A DNA stretch of 64,000 nt from Chloracidobacterium sp. N (lineage in GTDB: Bacteria > Acidobacteriota > Blastocatellia > Chloracidobacteriales > Chloracidobacteriaceae): NCBI RefSeq assembly GCF_018304765.1, contig NZ_CP072642.1, positions 417,501 through 481,500 on the forward strand, read 5' to 3'. Shown piece after piece: positions 47,034-54,133 of the stretch (position 1 is the stretch's first letter; every line of letters starts with the position of its first letter). The translations under genes and the position numbers were made by a program. The notes beneath the pieces are model-generated. The model did no database searches. It saw nothing but the letters and a program-made list of their open reading frames with translations, and was not told the DNA's origin.

Positions 47034-47783
47034 ATGTCGGTTGCACCCAACCACCACCTGCCGGCTGATGGAACGCCGCTGCTGACCGTGGAGAACCTTG
47101 GTGTGGCCTATGGGGCCATCGAGGCGCTGCACGATGTGTCGCTGACGGTGGGCAGGGGGGAAATCGTGACCCTCATCGGCGCCAACGGGGCCGGCAAAAC
47201 GACGACGCTGAAAACCATCGTCGGACTGCTCAAGCCGAAGCGGGGCCGGGTTGTGTTCAATGGCGAAAGCATCACGGCACGTCCCACGCACGAGATTGTT
47301 GCACGCGGCATTGCCCTCGCCCCCGAAGGGCGGGGCATTTTCCCCGACCTGACGGTGCTCGAAAATCTCGAACTCGGCGCTTACCGCCAGCCGGACCGGA
47401 AGCAGTTTCGCCGCGACCTCGACCACGTGTGTACGCTGTTTCCGCGCGTCAGAGAGCGGCTCCGGCAGCGGGCCGGAACGCTTTCCGGGGGCGAGCAGCA
47501 GATGGTGGCCATTGGAAGGGCGCTGATGAGCCGTCCGACGCTGCTGCTTCTGGATGAGCCATCGCTGGGGCTGGCGCCACTCGTCACACAGGCGATTTTT
47601 GACGCGCTTGGGGAACTCAACCGCGAAGGTTTGACGATTCTGCTCGTCGAACAGAACGCACACCTGGCGCTGAGCTGTTCCAGTCGCGGGTATGTGCTGG
47701 AAACCGGGCGTGTCCTGCTGACCGGCAGCGCCGCCGAACTTCTGCAGGACGCCCGTGTACGGGAGGCCTATCTGGGGCAATGA
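47034..47783 (+). CDS. livF: Branched-chain amino acid-type ABC transporter ATP-binding protein LivF
   Basis: The 249-residue ATPase has VAYGAIEALHDVSL, LIGANGAGKTTTLKTIVG (Walker A), ALAPEGRGIFPDLTV (LivF-type), LSGGEQQMVAIGRAL (signature), LLLLDEPSLGLAPLV (Walker B) and LLVEQNAHLAL. It would pair with LivG, but its gene is separated from livG by the methyltransferase gene. It overlaps the FkbM gene by four bases. Confidence 0.94.
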   Translation: MSVAPNHHLPADGTPLLTVENLGVAYGAIEALHDVSLTVGRGEIVTLIGANGAGKTTTLKTIVGLLKPKRGRVVFNGESITARPTHEIVARGIALAPEGRGIFPDLTVLENLELGAYRQPDRKQFRRDLDHVCTLFPRVRERLRQRAGTLSGGEQQMVAIGRALMSRPTLLLLDEPSLGLAPLVTQAIFDALGELNREGLTILLVEQNAHLALSCSSRGYVLETGRVLLTGSAAELLQDARVREAYLGQ

Positions 47784-48514
47784 AAAAGTTCATCCGACAG
47801 CTTATCGAGAAGGCCGGATACACGGTTTTCAAGACCGCGTACGCGCCCAAACAAATGGATGTCATCCTCGACATCCGGCGGCTTGTCCCGCTGTCATCGG
47901 TACAGGTCATTTTTGATGTCGGGGCCAATGTCGGCGAAACCGTTTGCTGGCTTCGGGGGGCGTTTCCACACGCTCACATCGTGGCCTTTGAGCCGGTCAA
48001 GGCTACCTTCAATGAGCTTGAGCGTCGGGTTGGCCACCTTCCGAACGTGACACTTTTGAATGTTGCTTTGGGGGAGCAGCCCAAAGTTGAAGTCATGCAC
48101 CTGCAAAGGTATTCAGCGCATAACTCACTCAATCCAGCACTCAACCAGCCTTCACCAACTGGTCAATCTGAGGAAGTTCAGGTTGAGACAGCACAAAACA
48201 TCGCCAAGAAGCTAGCTCTTCCGCGAATTGATTTCTTCAAGATTGATACCCAAAACTATGAGATTCCGGTTCTGGCCGGAGCGGTGGATTATCTGCCGAC
48301 GACGACGTTTATTTATGCTGAAATGGGCTTTGAGAAAGCTGGAGAAGCTACTAACTTTTTTGCCTTGCATGAGTTTCTAAGCCGTCATGGTTTCGCCTTC
48401 TTTGGCCTTTACGAACTGTCTCATCATGAAGATGGACGGCTGTATTATGCCAACGCCCTGTTCATCAACCCTGCCCGACTTCGCGCGCCGGTGGGTGGCG
48501 CGGCGACGGCCTGA
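47780..48514 (+). CDS. FkbM family methyltransferase
   Basis: The 244-residue protein has VIFDVGANVGETV (SAM motif I), HIVAFEPVKATFNELE, NVALGE and FFKIDTQNYEIPVL, the FkbM pattern of O-methyltransferases acting on sugars or polyketides. The middle third (48060-48400) is noticeably more AT-rich and uses different codons from its neighbours, suggesting a transferred gene or segment. The ATG overlaps the livF stop. The acceptor is unknown. Confidence 0.88.
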   Translation: MKKFIRQLIEKAGYTVFKTAYAPKQMDVILDIRRLVPLSSVQVIFDVGANVGETVCWLRGAFPHAHIVAFEPVKATFNELERRVGHLPNVTLLNVALGEQPKVEVMHLQRYSAHNSLNPALNQPSPTGQSEEVQVETAQNIAKKLALPRIDFFKIDTQNYEIPVLAGAVDYLPTTTFIYAEMGFEKAGEATNFFALHEFLSRHGFAFFGLYELSHHEDGRLYYANALFINPARLRAPVGGAATA

Positions 48515-48640
48515 GTCCGATGTTTGTCGCTTGCGGGGGGGCACGTATGGCATCCTCTGCAACAGTCCATTTGCGTCAACTGATGTGGTGCATTCTGTTT
48601 CCGTGCACGCTTGCGTGCATCCTGAACCTTGGAGGTAACG

Positions 48641-49273
48641 ATGCGAAACAACGTCCGACTGGCGTCCGTTTGGGGGCTGGCGCTGCTTGCCAGTCTGATC
48701 CTCTGGCTTCCATCCACCGGTTTGGCGCAGGCAGGTACGCCAAATGAGCCGACACTGGTGGTCTATGGTGGTCTCAACCCACCAGCGCATATTGCGCAAA
48801 TCACCTACACCCATCCGCAAACCAAAGTTTCCAGCACATTCGACATCCCGCTGCTGACGACACGTGAGCACCACCGCCACGAGATCAGGCTTTCAGCCGA
48901 CAGGGATTGGCTGCGTCACCTCACCGTGCACCTTCAATGGATTGAACGCCCCCAGATGGTCGAGCGTCTGGATGTGGCGTTGCTGCTGGACATACAGGGC
49001 CGGCAGGTCAAGATTCCGCTCAAGTCTGACGATGGATTTCAGACGTTCCATGTGGATGAGCGGCATTACAATGGTATGAGCAGCCCCGGACTGATGGGCG
49101 GCCGCCTGTCTTCGCCGGCAACGGCCCGGGTCGCCATTATATCCGTCGCTTTCCAGGATGGACGGCAATGGGCGCCTACGTTGGGCTACTACCAAGTGCG
49201 GCAACTGCCGGATGGCAAACGCGCCATCGAGGTTGATGATAAACAAGGGGGGGCAGAATCCCCTGAGCGATGA
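48641..49273 (+). CDS. Secreted protein of unknown function
   Basis: The 210-residue protein starts at an ATG preceded by GGAGGTAACG. It has a signal peptide (VWGLALLASLILWLPSTGLAQA) and a mature beta-rich part with LVVYGGLNPPAHIAQITYTHP, FDIPLLTTREHHRHEIRLS and YYQVRQLPDGKRAIEVDDK. I recognise no family. A terminator follows at 49343-49376. Confidence 0.78.
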   Translation: MRNNVRLASVWGLALLASLILWLPSTGLAQAGTPNEPTLVVYGGLNPPAHIAQITYTHPQTKVSSTFDIPLLTTREHHRHEIRLSADRDWLRHLTVHLQWIERPQMVERLDVALLLDIQGRQVKIPLKSDDGFQTFHVDERHYNGMSSPGLMGGRLSSPATARVAIISVAFQDGRQWAPTLGYYQVRQLPDGKRAIEVDDKQGGAESPER

Positions 49274-49342
49274 ATTTTGCGGCTGTGCCAGGCTGTTGGA
49301 AAGCTGGCGTGAGGCCTGTCCGGGCGTAAACGACTGAACTGG

Positions 49343-49376
49343 AACCGGGCGGTGGCTCAACCGCCCGGTTTGTTTT
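49343..49376 (+). terminator. Rho-independent terminator after the secreted-protein gene
   Basis: An 11-bp perfect stem (49343-49353 with 49360-49370) is followed by TGTTTT. The stop codon of the last Uma2 gene (minus strand) lies inside the loop, so the convergent messages share this site. Confidence 0.8.
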
Positions 49377-50328
49377 CTGGCTGGTTTTGGAGCAGGCGTC
49401 GCAGCCGCTCAATCTCGGCAGCCAGAGCTGCTGCCTGTGCTTCGGCCGCTTCAGCGCGTTTTCGTTCAGCTTCCGCCTCAGCCTGGGCAGCTTCGGCACG
49501 GGTTCTTGCCGTCTCAGCTTCCGCCTGGGCGGCTTCAGCCCGCTTTCGTTCGGCCTCAGCTTCCGCTTGGGCACGTTCCGCCTCGGCTTGGGCGCGTTTG
49601 GCTTCCGCTTGGGCACGTTCTGCTTCGGCTTGGGCGCGTTCGGCTTCCGCCTGCGCAGCTTCCGCTTCCGTCGGAATCAACCGCCCCTCGGCATCATACA
49701 GCCGCAACCACCGACTCCGCGCCCCGTGATACTCGCCTTCCCACTCCCCCACCCACGCCCCAAACACCCGACTCCACAACCACCCACGCTCATCCGCCGC
49801 CAGCGCCTCGTACCCATCACGCCCCAGCACCCACCCCAGCAACTCCGGCTCTCCACCCTGTGTCGGGTCCGGCCCGTAGCAAAAATACTCCCGCGTCCGA
49901 AACACCCGCTCGTACAACGCCTTCTTCGCCCCCAAATCCACTCCCCGCGTCGAGGGCGACAGCAACTCCACAATCACGTCCGGCAACCGCCCGCCTTCCC
50001 GCCACGCCACCCAGCACGGTCGCACGTACGACCCGTTCACGTCCTTCACCACGAAAAAGTCCGGCCCCTTGTAGTCCTGCCGCTGCACCTGCTGAAGGCT
50101 GTAATAGACAAACATGTTACCACCGGCATAAAAGTCCGTCCGCCCGCGCCAAAGCTGGTGAACGCAGTCGTCAAGCAGGTTGATTTGCAGCCGATGCCAG
50201 AGATTCTCCAAGGGTATCCCGTCCTCACAGGGCAGTTCCCGGGTGAAGTCTTCCGTGAAGTCCAACGCCTGCCCCACGGCTTCCACAGGTCCAGCTTCCA
50301 CAGATACGGCTTCCACGGGTGATGTCAT
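49357..50328 (-). CDS. Uma2 family endonuclease-like protein, tandem copy D (longest tail)
   Basis: Last of four tandem genes in transcription order. Residues 1 to about 215 are a Uma2 (DUF820) PD-(D/E)XK nuclease-like core almost identical to the other copies: DFTRELPCEDGIP, LPDVIVELLSPSTRGVD with the catalytic Asp and Glu, DLGAKKALYE with the Lys, and EYFCYGPD. The tail from about residue 220 is a charged coiled coil with units such as ERAQAEA repeated at least six times, ending in RLRRLLQNQ. At 323 residues it is longer than its siblings; the extra length is tandem 21-bp units. RBS GGAGG lies nine bases upstream. Confidence 0.9.
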   Translation of the reverse strand: MTSPVEAVSVEAGPVEAVGQALDFTEDFTRELPCEDGIPLENLWHRLQINLLDDCVHQLWRGRTDFYAGGNMFVYYSLQQVQRQDYKGPDFFVVKDVNGSYVRPCWVAWREGGRLPDVIVELLSPSTRGVDLGAKKALYERVFRTREYFCYGPDPTQGGEPELLGWVLGRDGYEALAADERGWLWSRVFGAWVGEWEGEYHGARSRWLRLYDAEGRLIPTEAEAAQAEAERAQAEAERAQAEAKRAQAEAERAQAEAEAERKRAEAAQAEAETARTRAEAAQAEAEAERKRAEAAEAQAAALAAEIERLRRLLQNQPENKPGG

Positions 50329-50397
50329 TGGTTGTCCCTCCCGCCTGATGTCAGCGGTGCAGCCACCGGGTGAGATTGTTCCAGCCTGAAATCCACG

Positions 50398-51243
50398 CTA
50401 GGGCTGCGATGGTTTTTCGGGTTGACTTGATAGCAATGCCTGCACCCGTGCCAGTTCCGCCTCCAGCGCCGCCGCCCGCGCTTCAGCCGCTTCCGCGCGT
50501 CTCCGTTCAGCTTCGGCCTCGGCCCGGGCACGTTCTGCCTCCGCTTGGGCGCGTTCGGCTTCCGCCTGCGCAGCTTCCGCTGCCGTCGGAATCAACCGCC
50601 CCTCGGCATCGTACAGCCGCAACCACCGACTCCGCGCCCCGTGATACTCGCCTTCCCACTCCCCCACCCACGCCCCAAACACCCGACTCCACAACCACCC
50701 ACGCTCATCCGCCGCCAGCGCCTCGTACCCATCACGCCCCAGCACCCACCCCAGCAACTCCGGCTCTCCACCCTGTGTCGGGTCCGGCCCGTAGCAAAAA
50801 TACTCCCGCGTCCGAAACACCCGCTCGTACAGCGCCTTCTTCGCCCCCAAATCCACTCCCCGCGTCGAGGGCGACAGCAACTCCACAATCACGTCCGGCA
50901 ACCGCCCGCCTTCCCGCCACGCCACCCAGCACGGTCGCACGTACGACCCGTCCACGTCCTTCACCACGAAAAAGTCCGGCCCCTTGTAGTCCTGCCGCTG
51001 CACCTGCTGAAGGCTGTAATAGACAAACATATTGCCCCCGGCATAAAAGTCCGTCCGCCCGCGCCAAAGCTGGTGAACGCAGTCATCGAGCAGGTTGATT
51101 TGCAGCCGATGCCAGAGATTCTCCAAGGGTATCCCGTCCTCACAGGGCAGTTCCCGGGTGAAGTCTTCCGTGAAGTCCAACGCCTGCCCCACGGCTTCCA
51201 CAGGTCCAGCTTCCACAGATACGGCTTCCACGGGTGATGTCAT
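50398..51243 (-). CDS. Uma2 family endonuclease-like protein, tandem copy C
   Basis: The 281-residue copy has the same core as its neighbours (MTSPVEAVSVEAGPVEAV at the start, DFFVVKDVDGSYVRP, PDVIVELLSPSTRG). The tail is shorter than copy D: AAQAEAERAQAEAERARAE, then a RRRAEAAEARAAALEAELA segment and VQALLSSQPEKPSQP. The ATG at 51243 is preceded by GGGAGGGACAACCA. The 67-70-bp gaps between copies are also conserved, so whole gene-plus-leader units were duplicated. Confidence 0.9.
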   Translation of the reverse strand: MTSPVEAVSVEAGPVEAVGQALDFTEDFTRELPCEDGIPLENLWHRLQINLLDDCVHQLWRGRTDFYAGGNMFVYYSLQQVQRQDYKGPDFFVVKDVDGSYVRPCWVAWREGGRLPDVIVELLSPSTRGVDLGAKKALYERVFRTREYFCYGPDPTQGGEPELLGWVLGRDGYEALAADERGWLWSRVFGAWVGEWEGEYHGARSRWLRLYDAEGRLIPTAAEAAQAEAERAQAEAERARAEAEAERRRAEAAEARAAALEAELARVQALLSSQPEKPSQP

Positions 51244-51310
51244 TGGTTGTCCCTCCCGCCTGATGTCAGCGATGCAGCCACCGGGTGATTGTTCCAGCCT
51301 GAAATCCACG

Positions 51311-52093
51311 CTAGGGCTGCGATGGTTTTTCGGGTTGGTTCGACAACAGCGCCTGCACCCGTGCCAGTTCCGCCTCCAGCGCCGCTGCCCGCGCTTCAGC
51401 CGCTTCCGCACGTCTCCGTTCGGCTTCGGATTCCGTCGGAATCAACCGTCCCTCGGCATCGTACAGCCGCAGCCACCGACTCCGCGCCCCGTGATACTCG
51501 CCTTCCCACTCCCCCACCCACGCCCCAAACACCCGACTCCACAACCACCCACGCTCATCCGCCGCCAGCGCCTCGTACCCATCACGCCCCAGCACCCACC
51601 CCAGCAACTCCGGCTCTCCACCCTGTGTCGGGTCCGGCCCGTAGCAAAAATACTCCCGCGTCCGAAACACCTGCTCGTACAACGCCTTCTTCGCCCCCAA
51701 ATCCACTCCCCGCGTCGAGGGCGACAGCAACTCCACAATCACGTCCGGCAACCGCCCGCCTTCCCGCCACGCCACCCAGCACGGTCGCACGTACGACCCG
51801 TTCACGTCCTTCACCACGAAAAAGTCCGGCCCCTTGTAGTCCTGCCGCTGCACCTGCTGAAGGCTGTAATAGACAAACATATTGCCCCCGGCATAAAAGT
51901 CCGTCCGCCCGCGCCAAAGCTGGTGAACGCAGTCGTCAAGCAGGTTGATTTGCAGCCGATGCCAGAGATTCTCCAAGGGTATCCCGTCCTCACAGGGCAG
52001 TTCCCGGGTGAAGTCTTCCGTGAAGTCCAACGCCTGCCCCACGGCTTCCACAGGTCCAGCTTCCACAGATACGGCTTCCACGGGTGATGTCAT
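51311..52093 (-). CDS. Uma2 family endonuclease-like protein, tandem copy B (shortest tail)
   Basis: The 260-residue copy shares the core and the last 35 residues with copies A and C but has the shortest tail (ESEAERRRAEAAEARAA). One core difference (Gln for Arg in YEQVF) is visible. It shows that the nuclease core is kept while the coiled-coil stem can be nearly eliminated. The RBS and gap match copy C. Confidence 0.9.
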   Translation of the reverse strand: MTSPVEAVSVEAGPVEAVGQALDFTEDFTRELPCEDGIPLENLWHRLQINLLDDCVHQLWRGRTDFYAGGNMFVYYSLQQVQRQDYKGPDFFVVKDVNGSYVRPCWVAWREGGRLPDVIVELLSPSTRGVDLGAKKALYEQVFRTREYFCYGPDPTQGGEPELLGWVLGRDGYEALAADERGWLWSRVFGAWVGEWEGEYHGARSRWLRLYDAEGRLIPTESEAERRRAEAAEARAAALEAELARVQALLSNQPEKPSQP

Positions 52094-52160
52094 TGGTTGT
52101 CCCTCCCGCCTGATGTCAGCGATGCAGCCACCGGGTGATTGTTCCAGCCTGAAATCCACG

Positions 52161-52985
52161 CTAGGGCTGCGATGGTTTTTCGGGTTGGTTCGACAACAGC
52201 GCCTGCACCCGTGCCAGTTCCGCCTCCAGCGCCGCCGCCCGCGCCTCGGCCGCTTCCGCGCGTCTCCGTTCAGCTTCCGTCTCAGCTTGGGCGGCTTCGG
52301 CGCGTTTTCGTTCGGCTTCAGCTTCCGTTGGAATCAACCGCCCCTCGGCATCATACAGCCGCAGCCACCGACTCCGCGCCCCGTGATACTCGCCTTCCCA
52401 CTCCCCCACCCACGCCCCAAACACCCGACTCCACAACCACCCACGCTCATCCGCCGCCAGCGCCTCGTACCCATCACGCCCCAGCACCCACCCCAGCAAC
52501 TCCGGCTCTCCACCCTGTGTCGGGTCCGGCCCGTAGCAAAAATACTCCCGCGTCCGAAACACCCGCTCGTACAGCGCCTTCTTCGCCCCCAAATCCACTC
52601 CCCGCGTCGAGGGCGACAGCAACTCCACAATCACGTCCGGCAACCGCCCGCCTTCCCGCCACGCCACCCAGCACGGTCGCACGTACGACCCGTCCACGTC
52701 CTTCACCACGAAAAAGTCCGGCCCCTTGTAGTCCTGCCGCTGCACCTGCTGAAGGCTGTAATAGACAAACATATTGCCCCCGGCATAAAAGTCCGTCCGC
52801 CCGCGCCAAAGCTGGTGAACGCAGTCATCGAGCAGGTTGATTTGCAGCCGATGCCAGAGATTCTCCAAGGGTATCCCGTCCTCACAGGGCAGTTCCCGGG
52901 TGAAGTCTTCCGTGAAGTCCAACGCCTGCCCCACGGCTTCCACAGGTCCAGCTTCCACAGATACGGCTTCCACCGGTGATGTCAT
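52161..52985 (-). CDS. Uma2 family endonuclease-like protein, tandem copy A (first in transcription)
   Basis: The 274-residue first copy has the same core as the others and a tail of two related units (EAERKRAEAAQAETEAERRR) before the shared C-terminal block. Unlike B-D its leader is unique: GGGGGAGGGTAGGTT directly precedes the ATG, and the leader can form two alternative hairpins. It follows hemE on the same strand by 119 bases. Uma2 proteins are expanded in cyanobacteria and some other phyla and their biological role is not settled. Confidence 0.9.
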   Translation of the reverse strand: MTSPVEAVSVEAGPVEAVGQALDFTEDFTRELPCEDGIPLENLWHRLQINLLDDCVHQLWRGRTDFYAGGNMFVYYSLQQVQRQDYKGPDFFVVKDVDGSYVRPCWVAWREGGRLPDVIVELLSPSTRGVDLGAKKALYERVFRTREYFCYGPDPTQGGEPELLGWVLGRDGYEALAADERGWLWSRVFGAWVGEWEGEYHGARSRWLRLYDAEGRLIPTEAEAERKRAEAAQAETEAERRRAEAAEARAAALEAELARVQALLSNQPEKPSQP

Positions 52986-53104: not shown

Positions 53105-54133
53105 TTACAATCGTCCCTGAGCTGCGGCAATAAACGTCTGGGCGTTTTCCACCGGCGTTGGCGGCAGGATACCATGCCCCAGGTTCATGATATGACCCGG
53201 CGCATCCTTGGCTTTGGCACGGATGTCTTCGACGCCACGCAGGATACCCTCGCGCGGCCCAAGCAGGCGGCAGGGATCGAGATTCCCCTGCAGCGCGACC
53301 CGTCCCTGAGTACGCCGTACCGCCTCGGCCAGGTCAGTCCGCCAGTCAATGCTGAGCACCTCGGCGCCTGAAGCGGCCATGCCTTCGAGCAGGTGGGTGC
53401 TGCCGTTGACATAGAGGATACGCGGCACAGCCGACCCGACCTGCTCAAAGACCCGCTGAATGTAGGGCAGGGCAAAGGTGGCAAAATCTTCCGGCGACAG
53501 TTCGCCCGCCCACGAGTCAAAGAGTTGCAGGGCGTCAATTCCAGCTTCAATCTGGGCTTTCAGATAGAGTGCCTGCGTGTCGGCCAGCTTTTCCATAAGC
53601 CGGTGAAAGATGGCCGGCTCGCTGTACATCAGGCTCTTGATAATGTGGTAGTTCTTCGAGCTGCCGCCTTCGATCATGTAGGCCGCAAGCGTCCACGGCG
53701 CGCCGGCAAACCCAAGCAGCGGAACGGCATCGGCAATCTCGCGCTTGAGCGTCCGAATGATGTCATAGACAAACGGCATCGTTTCGACCGGGTCCGGGAC
53801 GCGCAGGGCTTCCACATCGGCGGCCGAGCGTACCGGATGCGGCATTTTGGGCCCGATTTTTTCCGTCAACTGCACCTCCAGCCCCATCGCCTCGACCGGA
53901 ATGAGGATGTCGGAAAACATGATGACGGCATCCACTCCCAGAATGCGGAGTGGTTGCAGGGAAACTTCGACGGCCAGATCAACTGCTTTGCACAGGGTCA
54001 GAAACGGCAGGTCCTTGCGTACGGCGCGGTACTCCGGCAGGTAGCGTCCGGCCTGGCGCATCATCCAGACGGGCGTACGTTCAACGGGCTGGCAGCGCGC
54101 AGCGCGAACCAACAGGTCATTTTTGAGAGGCAT
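53105..54133 (-). CDS. hemE: Uroporphyrinogen decarboxylase
   Basis: HemE removes four carboxyl groups from uroporphyrinogen III to give coproporphyrinogen III, on the shared path to heme and bacteriochlorophyll. The 342-residue protein has the N-terminal signature RTPVWMMRQAGRYLPEYR, IMFSDILIPVEAMG with the catalytic Asp, GFAGAPWTLAAYMIEGG, FDSWAGELSPEDF and LQGNLDPCRLLGP. Length is normal. The Uma2 array follows on the same strand. Confidence 0.97.
   Translation of the reverse strand: MPLKNDLLVRAARCQPVERTPVWMMRQAGRYLPEYRAVRKDLPFLTLCKAVDLAVEVSLQPLRILGVDAVIMFSDILIPVEAMGLEVQLTEKIGPKMPHPVRSAADVEALRVPDPVETMPFVYDIIRTLKREIADAVPLLGFAGAPWTLAAYMIEGGSSKNYHIIKSLMYSEPAIFHRLMEKLADTQALYLKAQIEAGIDALQLFDSWAGELSPEDFATFALPYIQRVFEQVGSAVPRILYVNGSTHLLEGMAASGAEVLSIDWRTDLAEAVRRTQGRVALQGNLDPCRLLGPREGILRGVEDIRAKAKDAPGHIMNLGHGILPPTPVENAQTFIAAAQGRL

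Follow-up and report, generated by a model that had tools for sequence, protein, structure and literature searches.

A tandem array of Uma2 genes next to hemE

The window analysed here is a stretch of 64,000 nucleotides (nt) of the hot-spring bacterium Chloracidobacterium sp. N (G000:C1:417501-481500; the genome has two contigs, 2,639,773 and 1,075,403 bases long, 3,715,176 in total). On its minus strand four intact, ATG-started Uma2 genes stand head to tail with no gene between them. All four proteins match the Pfam family Uma2 (PF05685 / DUF820 / COG4636) with 45.7-46.4 bits and E values of 4e-12 to 6e-12, where the gathering cut-off is 27 bits; the match covers residues 45-154 and profile positions 32-132 of 172. 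With at least two adjacent Uma2 genes on the same strand and nothing between them, the locus is a tandem Uma2 paralog cassette. An earlier note, made from the sequence alone, had described four Uma2 genes of 323, 281, 260 and 274 codons with conserved gaps of 67-70 base pairs (bp) behind hemE. The open reading frames (ORFs), the Pfam matches and the gaps (67, 67 and 69 bp) bear this out. The array does adjoin hemE; it is on the minus strand, and the hemE-proximal copy is the one with 274 codons.

We name the genes A to D in order of transcription. The core is defined as codons 40-220 (181 codons, 543 nt) and the tail as the residues after it. G000 is the genome of strain N itself, G001 is its nearest relative (the sister genome), and O1 is the single Uma2 gene of G001, which is syntenic with the array.

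52161-52985, minus strand: Uma2 gene A, hemE-proximal, 274 amino acids (aa); core at 52326-52868; tail of 54 aa with a type-1 end
52094-52160, minus strand: spacer A-B, 67 bp, identical to spacer B-C, with GGGAGGG before the next ATG
51311-52093, minus strand: Uma2 gene B, 260 aa; tail of 40 aa with a type-1 end; Asn98 and Gln141
51244-51310, minus strand: spacer B-C, 67 bp
50398-51243, minus strand: Uma2 gene C, 281 aa; tail of 61 aa with a type-1 end; protein core identical to that of A
50329-50397, minus strand: spacer C-D, 69 bp, with a 2-nt insertion and one substitution relative to the other two spacers
49357-50328, minus strand: Uma2 gene D, last copy, 323 aa; tail of 103 aa with a type-2 end, in common with O1 of the sister genome
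49444-49668, minus strand: 21/42-bp tandem repeats encoding the heptad tail of gene D

All four copies have the same first 39 residues. As the earlier note had it, the cores are nearly identical and differ in a few residues: in 181 codons only residue 98 (D, N, D, N in A to D) and residue 141 (R, Q, R, R) vary. Judged from the alignment, these two differences say little, because both columns are variable among relatives. Repeat finding recovers the same picture at the DNA level, with core blocks of 300 nt present four times at 98-99% identity (families D1-D4), far above chance, and blocks extending into the tails at 87-97% identity (D5, D6).

Near-identical repeats of 0.85-0.9 kb are a classic site of assembly error. 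PacBio Sequel reads are normally longer than 4 kb, and the copies have private differences and unequal lengths. According to Table 1 of PMC8245765, strain N was assembled into two chromosomes from PacBio Sequel reads with Canu 1.8. The earlier note had proposed long reads as a check, with a single copy speaking against the array, and this PacBio assembly has four copies. An assembly artefact is thus extremely improbable.

The mechanical ORF list gives longer, GTG-started forms of B (282 aa) and C (337 aa); ATG starts are used here. Open frames run through the spacers upstream of B, C and D (50329-52160; 340, 347 and 346 codons), so that longer GTG-started forms of these three genes may be conceivable from the sequence. 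The four genes are probably co-transcribed. No sigma-70 promoter was found within the array, where 0.4 were expected, with a sigma-70 model that is uninformative for this phylum.

Near-identical cores on two different 3′ ends

The cores of the four copies differ from one another at 3-9 of 543 nt (at most 1.7%) and from O1 at 15-19 of 543. The synonymous divergence (dS) is 0.024-0.065 among the copies and 0.087-0.140 between the copies and O1, while hemE of G000 and G001 gives 0.099. The multiplication of the copies, or their becoming alike, therefore postdates the split of the two lineages. The paralogs being closer to each other than to the ortholog is the mark of concerted evolution. The ratio of nonsynonymous to synonymous divergence (dN/dS) is 0-0.12 among the copies and 0.04-0.13 against O1, and the protein is therefore under constraint.

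The 3′ ends give a different result. Over 94 nt at the end of the tail, D has a single difference from O1, whereas the differences from D number 30 in A, 30 in B and 31 in C (about 32%), and A, B and C differ from each other at 4-9 positions. Recent amplification and/or gene conversion, as the earlier note had suggested, fits both parts of the data: the copies are closer to one another than to O1, and cores at most 1.7% apart sit on ends about 32% apart. The type-1 end together with the spacer (152 bp; end of gene B and spacer B-C) was found in one of 10 genomes, the own one (E <= 0.001), and in neither G001 nor the eight other relatives, with the best 40 of up to 49 first-look candidates scored in some genomes. 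Both outer sides of the array, that of A towards hemE and that of D downstream, align in G001 to one and the same gene: O1 has an upstream side like that of A and a tail like that of D.

The simplest account of these data would be a recent tandem duplication of one ancestral gene, from 1 to 4 copies, followed by point mutations and tail slippage. The sister genome with one syntenic copy speaks for it, and so does the closeness of the copies to each other as compared to O1. However, such a duplication would join a D-type end and the downstream flank to the upstream flank and the start of A. The actual junctions hold an end that is about 32% off that of D and a spacer that was not found in G001 or the eight other relatives. 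The junction sequence rules out plain tandem duplication as the whole story, and we regard this account as unlikely. Going by the junctions, the array is not a plain tandem duplication; exchange between genes with different ends is required, because one gene copied in tandem gives other junctions.

As to the source of the two ends, a related Uma2 gene at another locus (P) was compared over the 22 residues of the tail end. The best agreement of D and O1 is with P of G000 and G001 (19/22) and that of A-C with P of G005 (17/22); the comparison is too short to decide the origin.

Tails and 21-bp repeats

The earlier note was right that the tails vary, and its description can be made more exact: each tail consists of 7-residue (21-bp) repeats and one of two distinct C-terminal ends. 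Tail lengths are 54 (A), 40 (B), 61 (C), 103 (D) and 131 (O1) residues, and all differences are multiples of 7. At the DNA level the tails hold 21- and 42-bp repeats. The P genes of G000 and G001 have tails of 71 (P0) and 78 (P1) residues, thus single genes vary in tail length as well. Slippage of 21-bp units, with the heptad register kept, would suffice for the length variation, because the changes are whole 21-bp units and occur in single genes too. Heptad-like tails are also present in many relatives from other genera.

It had been proposed that a conserved core with a varied tail points to selection on dosage or on tail-mediated assembly. This argument does not stand, since slippage is enough and single genes vary too; the variation in tail length is no evidence of selection for varied assembly. 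More generally, four copies could be maintained by selection for dosage, or for tails of varied length that assemble differently. In favour of this, none of the four frames is broken and the cores are under constraint. However, constraint is just as evident when the copies are compared with the single-copy ortholog (dN/dS 0.04-0.13), and for this reason it does not argue for four copies. Tail length varies in the single genes O1, P0 and P1 as well, and conversion alone can keep copies intact for a time. We consider maintenance by such selection quite unlikely.

Predicted active site and structure

D90, E121 and K135 are present without exception in the 21 aligned proteins (the four copies, the gene of the sister genome and 16 relatives), and no copy has lost any of them. 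The claim of an intact catalytic pattern in all copies therefore holds for the predicted residues, and the mutation of catalytic residues in most copies, named earlier as a contrary outcome, was not found. The placing of the first catalytic Asp in PDVIVE has to be changed. Position 117, the Asp of PDVIVE, is not invariant and is Glu, Leu or Val in relatives. Because D90 is invariant and position 117 is variable, the first catalytic Asp is probably D90 in the motif GPDFF rather than D117. The predicted PD-EXX-K site of the family, with the lysine moved to the next helix, has been described by Feder and Bujnicki (PMC551604, in the passages cited here). D90, E121 and K135 correspond to D83, E111 and K127 of all3650 in that paper by motif and spacing, not by direct alignment.

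Two solved chains are matched, around the E and K motifs, by a profile built from the subfamily alignment: 9y1l with E 1.4e-10 and 6okh with E 2.2e-7. In the single-sequence search, 9y1l was a weak match (E 0.72), ranked below the unrelated 7e85 (E 0.15). TT1808 (1wdj), given as a solved Uma2-like chain in the cited part of PMC551604, was not among the matches in either the single-sequence or the profile search. In the AlphaFold2 model, built from five sequences, residues 221-314 (the heptad tail) form a single helix, most of it predicted with confidence, which is most naturally read as a coiled coil. The helical tail probably oligomerises. We infer that in each product a long helical tail is attached to a metal-dependent nuclease domain with D90, E121 and K135, and commit to the description of a putative nuclease with a helical tail.

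A PADLOC scan of two of the four proteins gave weak matches to the candidate PDC-S03 (E 6e-6 and 8e-6; 24 bits over 75 residues of the 188-position model, for which no cut-off is given). A type II toxin-antitoxin pairing was not found: the gaps of 67-69 bp are too small for an antitoxin gene and the flanks of the array are hemE and a convergent ORF of 214 aa; no antitoxin library was searched.

Neighbouring genes

The array is flanked by the following features.

53105-54133, minus strand: hemE (uroporphyrinogen decarboxylase), upstream neighbour, PF01208 with E 3.9e-132
49342-49371, plus strand: strong hairpin of 12 pairs followed by a T-rich stretch, terminator-like, between the convergent gene D and the 214-aa gene
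48629-49273, plus strand: 214-aa ORF, convergent neighbour

The terminator-like hairpin has a z score of −4.4, and four such sites were found in the region against 3.0 expected. A regulated hairpin between hemE and gene A was considered and rejected, as the leader folds no better than shuffled sequences (z 1.1; z −0.6 for the leader in G001). The 214-aa ORF has no Pfam or NCBIfam match; judged by eye, it has a possible signal peptide. It is present in G001 and is not found between hemE and the FkbM-type methyltransferase gene in G005. It may have come in together with the Uma2 gene. Over 47780-49273, G000 and G001 differ at 6 of 735 nt in the FkbM-type methyltransferase gene and at 5 of 645 in the 214-aa gene, as compared to 30 of 1026 in hemE. 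The low divergence of the first two is perhaps due to a recent exchange between the two species, or to strong constraint.

Distribution of the array and of related Uma2 genes

The locus behind hemE was compared in seven genomes of the genus, the own one included, with one genome per species. One genome has four copies, one has one copy, three show none and two are undecided. In G005, about 115 bp separate the match to hemE from that to the FkbM methyltransferase gene, and neither this Uma2 gene nor the 214-aa gene is matched there. In G003 and G006 there is no match to an array-type Uma2 gene within 1.5 kb behind hemE. The undecided genomes are G002, with about 220 bp behind hemE, and G004, where hemE is present only as fragments at contig ends. 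The last 43 hemE residues match with the same score at both of these ends (L052 and L053; contigs C25 and C35 of G004), and the assembly is probably broken inside hemE.

Besides the array, the own genome has four further Uma2 genes (eight matches in all). The P-locus gene is syntenic in G000, G001, G005 and G006; it is split by a frameshift in G005 (L043:7290-8080) and open in the other three. Near the P locus of G001 there is a direct repeat of 325 bp with 98.8% identity (L041:13021-13666). The hemE-side genes group on a branch of their own (100/100) in a 14-protein tree.

Among the matches listed for the array Uma2 protein (22 of 39 genomes with matches), a run of more than two occurs in the own genome alone. 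The Uma2 family as a whole is present in at least 22 of 60 genomes drawn from the phylum. A search of genome contigs yielded a single relative, truncated at the end of its contig, from a metagenome-assembled genome of Deltaproteobacteria. Pattern scans of viral contigs gave 18 and 25 pattern matches, none of which was confirmed as a relative.

Nine places with two nearby Uma2 genes in the same phylum were picked by eye among the matches listed for Uma2 as a whole and for the subfamily of the array, which is not a survey. Seven of the nine pairs are 83-92% identical in protein sequence, one pair is 59% identical and one is without real similarity (58% over 19 residues). In three, 1.1-2.4 kb lie between the matches, so not all are immediate neighbours. 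One tandem pair within the genus belongs to another Uma2 subfamily (G005, L065:1032-2816): its cores are 15 of 606 nt apart, and its tails of 64 and 70 residues are of different make-up. As far as these sequences go, it looks like a similar case and supports concerted evolution at the array.

These pairs also bear on a proposal of Feder and Bujnicki (2005, PMC551604, in the passages cited here), who suggested that the action of the nuclease stimulates recombination and duplication. The nuclease itself would then provoke the recombination that multiplies and homogenises its own gene. Tandem Uma2 genes reported in several cyanobacteria and in Thermus agree with this, as do the seven similar pairs among the nine. 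However, the same picture arises from ordinary homologous recombination between direct repeats, two of the nine pairs are unlike, and the activity of the members studied here is putative only. We find this explanation very unlikely for the present array.

Concerted evolution, probably by recombination

It is likely that the array is a tandem paralog cassette of Uma2-family putative PD-(D/E)XK nucleases in concerted evolution by recombination, to judge from how the cores contrast with the 3′ ends. Genes of the family that differed in their 3′ ends would have been brought together, either as an ancestral neighbouring pair or by replacement of the end of one copy. Homologous recombination between the cores, by unequal crossing-over and/or gene conversion, would account for their likeness, whether preserved or newly created, and for the change in copy number; the changes in tail length would go back to slippage of the 21-bp repeats. 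Two histories are conceivable. In the first, an ancestral pair with different ends had its cores homogenised and was expanded in G000 and perhaps collapsed to one gene in G001. In the second, the end of one copy was replaced from another Uma2 gene, with multiplication afterwards. O1 may be the ancestral state or the remnant of a core-to-core deletion. The extra copies may be a mere by-product of recombination, and selection on dosage or assembly is not needed for this picture.

The informative sites also speak for this interpretation, in that all three groupings of the four copies have support: the 12 sites across the whole unit are distributed as AC|BD 5, AB|CD 5 and AD|BC 2, and those in the core alone as AC|BD 4, AB|CD 1 and AD|BC 1. 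Several points weigh against it. The conflict in the core amounts to two sites (the AB|CD and the AD|BC one), the remaining sites are in the repeat-rich tail with its uncertain alignment, and parallel substitution could explain a few of them. The order of the sites is weakly non-random at best (p 0.24 for like neighbours; p 0.02 for the first four being alike, a choice made post hoc). Because the evidence from site conflict and site order is weak, the case for recombination rests on the contrast between cores and ends. The source of the second 3′ end is inferred, as no donor of the type-1 end and spacer was found among the 10 genomes, and so are nuclease activity, co-transcription and oligomerisation. 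The core of the AlphaFold2 model has low confidence (mean pLDDT 55.5). The single copy in G001 may stem from a 454 assembly, in which repeats can collapse. In the tandem pair of G005 the tails differ by 6, not 7, residues, and the last residues are also unlike.

A further idea goes beyond recombination between neighbours: the products would cut or nick in or near their own 21-bp repeats or cores, and repair from the neighbouring genes would homogenise the core, making the cassette self-maintaining. We hold this to be a long shot. If it is true, the 3′ ends would be shuffled, tail length and copy number would switch fast between strains, and each strain would have its own set of nuclease assemblies.

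Uma2 is a large family of bacterial proteins for which no role has been established. The present locus offers a clean natural comparison: one sister has a single copy, one relative has an empty site, cores and 3′ ends contrast in a traceable way, and the strains are culturable. Therefore, it can be asked directly whether the copy number of Uma2 matters to the cell.

Comparison with known systems

Our literature search found no paper joining Chloracidobacterium and Uma2, and a search for Uma2 and anti-phage gave no Uma2 paper among the matches listed. Role hints in the literature diverge and all are proposals. In the parts of these papers that mention the family, a DUF820 gene stands beside toxin-antitoxin genes in the hox operon of Synechocystis (PMC4963859), Uma2 is treated as a putative restriction or defence gene (PMC9716671), and in Microcystis it appears as an accessory gene of type III CRISPR clusters (PMC11855584).

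Around the E and K motifs the array proteins resemble the solved chains 9y1l and 6okh. Unlike these (188 and 190 aa), they are longer and carry a heptad tail.

The expansion of Uma2 has been noted in Thermus (PMC1274311, in brief) and in Thermosynechococcus TA-1 and CL-1 (PMC9403480, in the section concerned). The latter is a similar case in that the Uma2 copy number changes among related hot-spring phototrophs. It differs in that the copies are counted per genome there, and the tandem arrays named in that section are of rpn genes.

Makarova et al. (2009, PMC2701414), in the relevant section, describe Uma2 genes as standing mostly in cassettes of paralogs and propose that they are solo toxins. 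Our array is like these cassettes in having adjacent paralogous Uma2 genes without a recognised antitoxin. Unlike it, the cassettes described there are cyanobacterial, and their toxicity is a proposal.

A close counterpart is in Crocosphaera watsonii WH 8501, which has four consecutive, closely related COG4636/Uma2 genes (Feder and Bujnicki 2005, PMC551604). The cited passages of the same paper report further tandem duplications, call them rare in general, and find neither recurrent neighbours nor a link to mobile elements for the family. Both clusters consist of four tandem, closely related genes of the same family. They differ in phylum, and core homogenisation and two-ended tails are not described for Crocosphaera in those passages. 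Tandem Uma2 cassettes, a four-gene one included, have thus been in print since 2005 and 2009. The new detail, as read from the sequences, is the near-identical cores on two old 3′ ends together with a one-copy sister. The locus adds an example and no new kind of system, and it is a good test bed for the Uma2 family.

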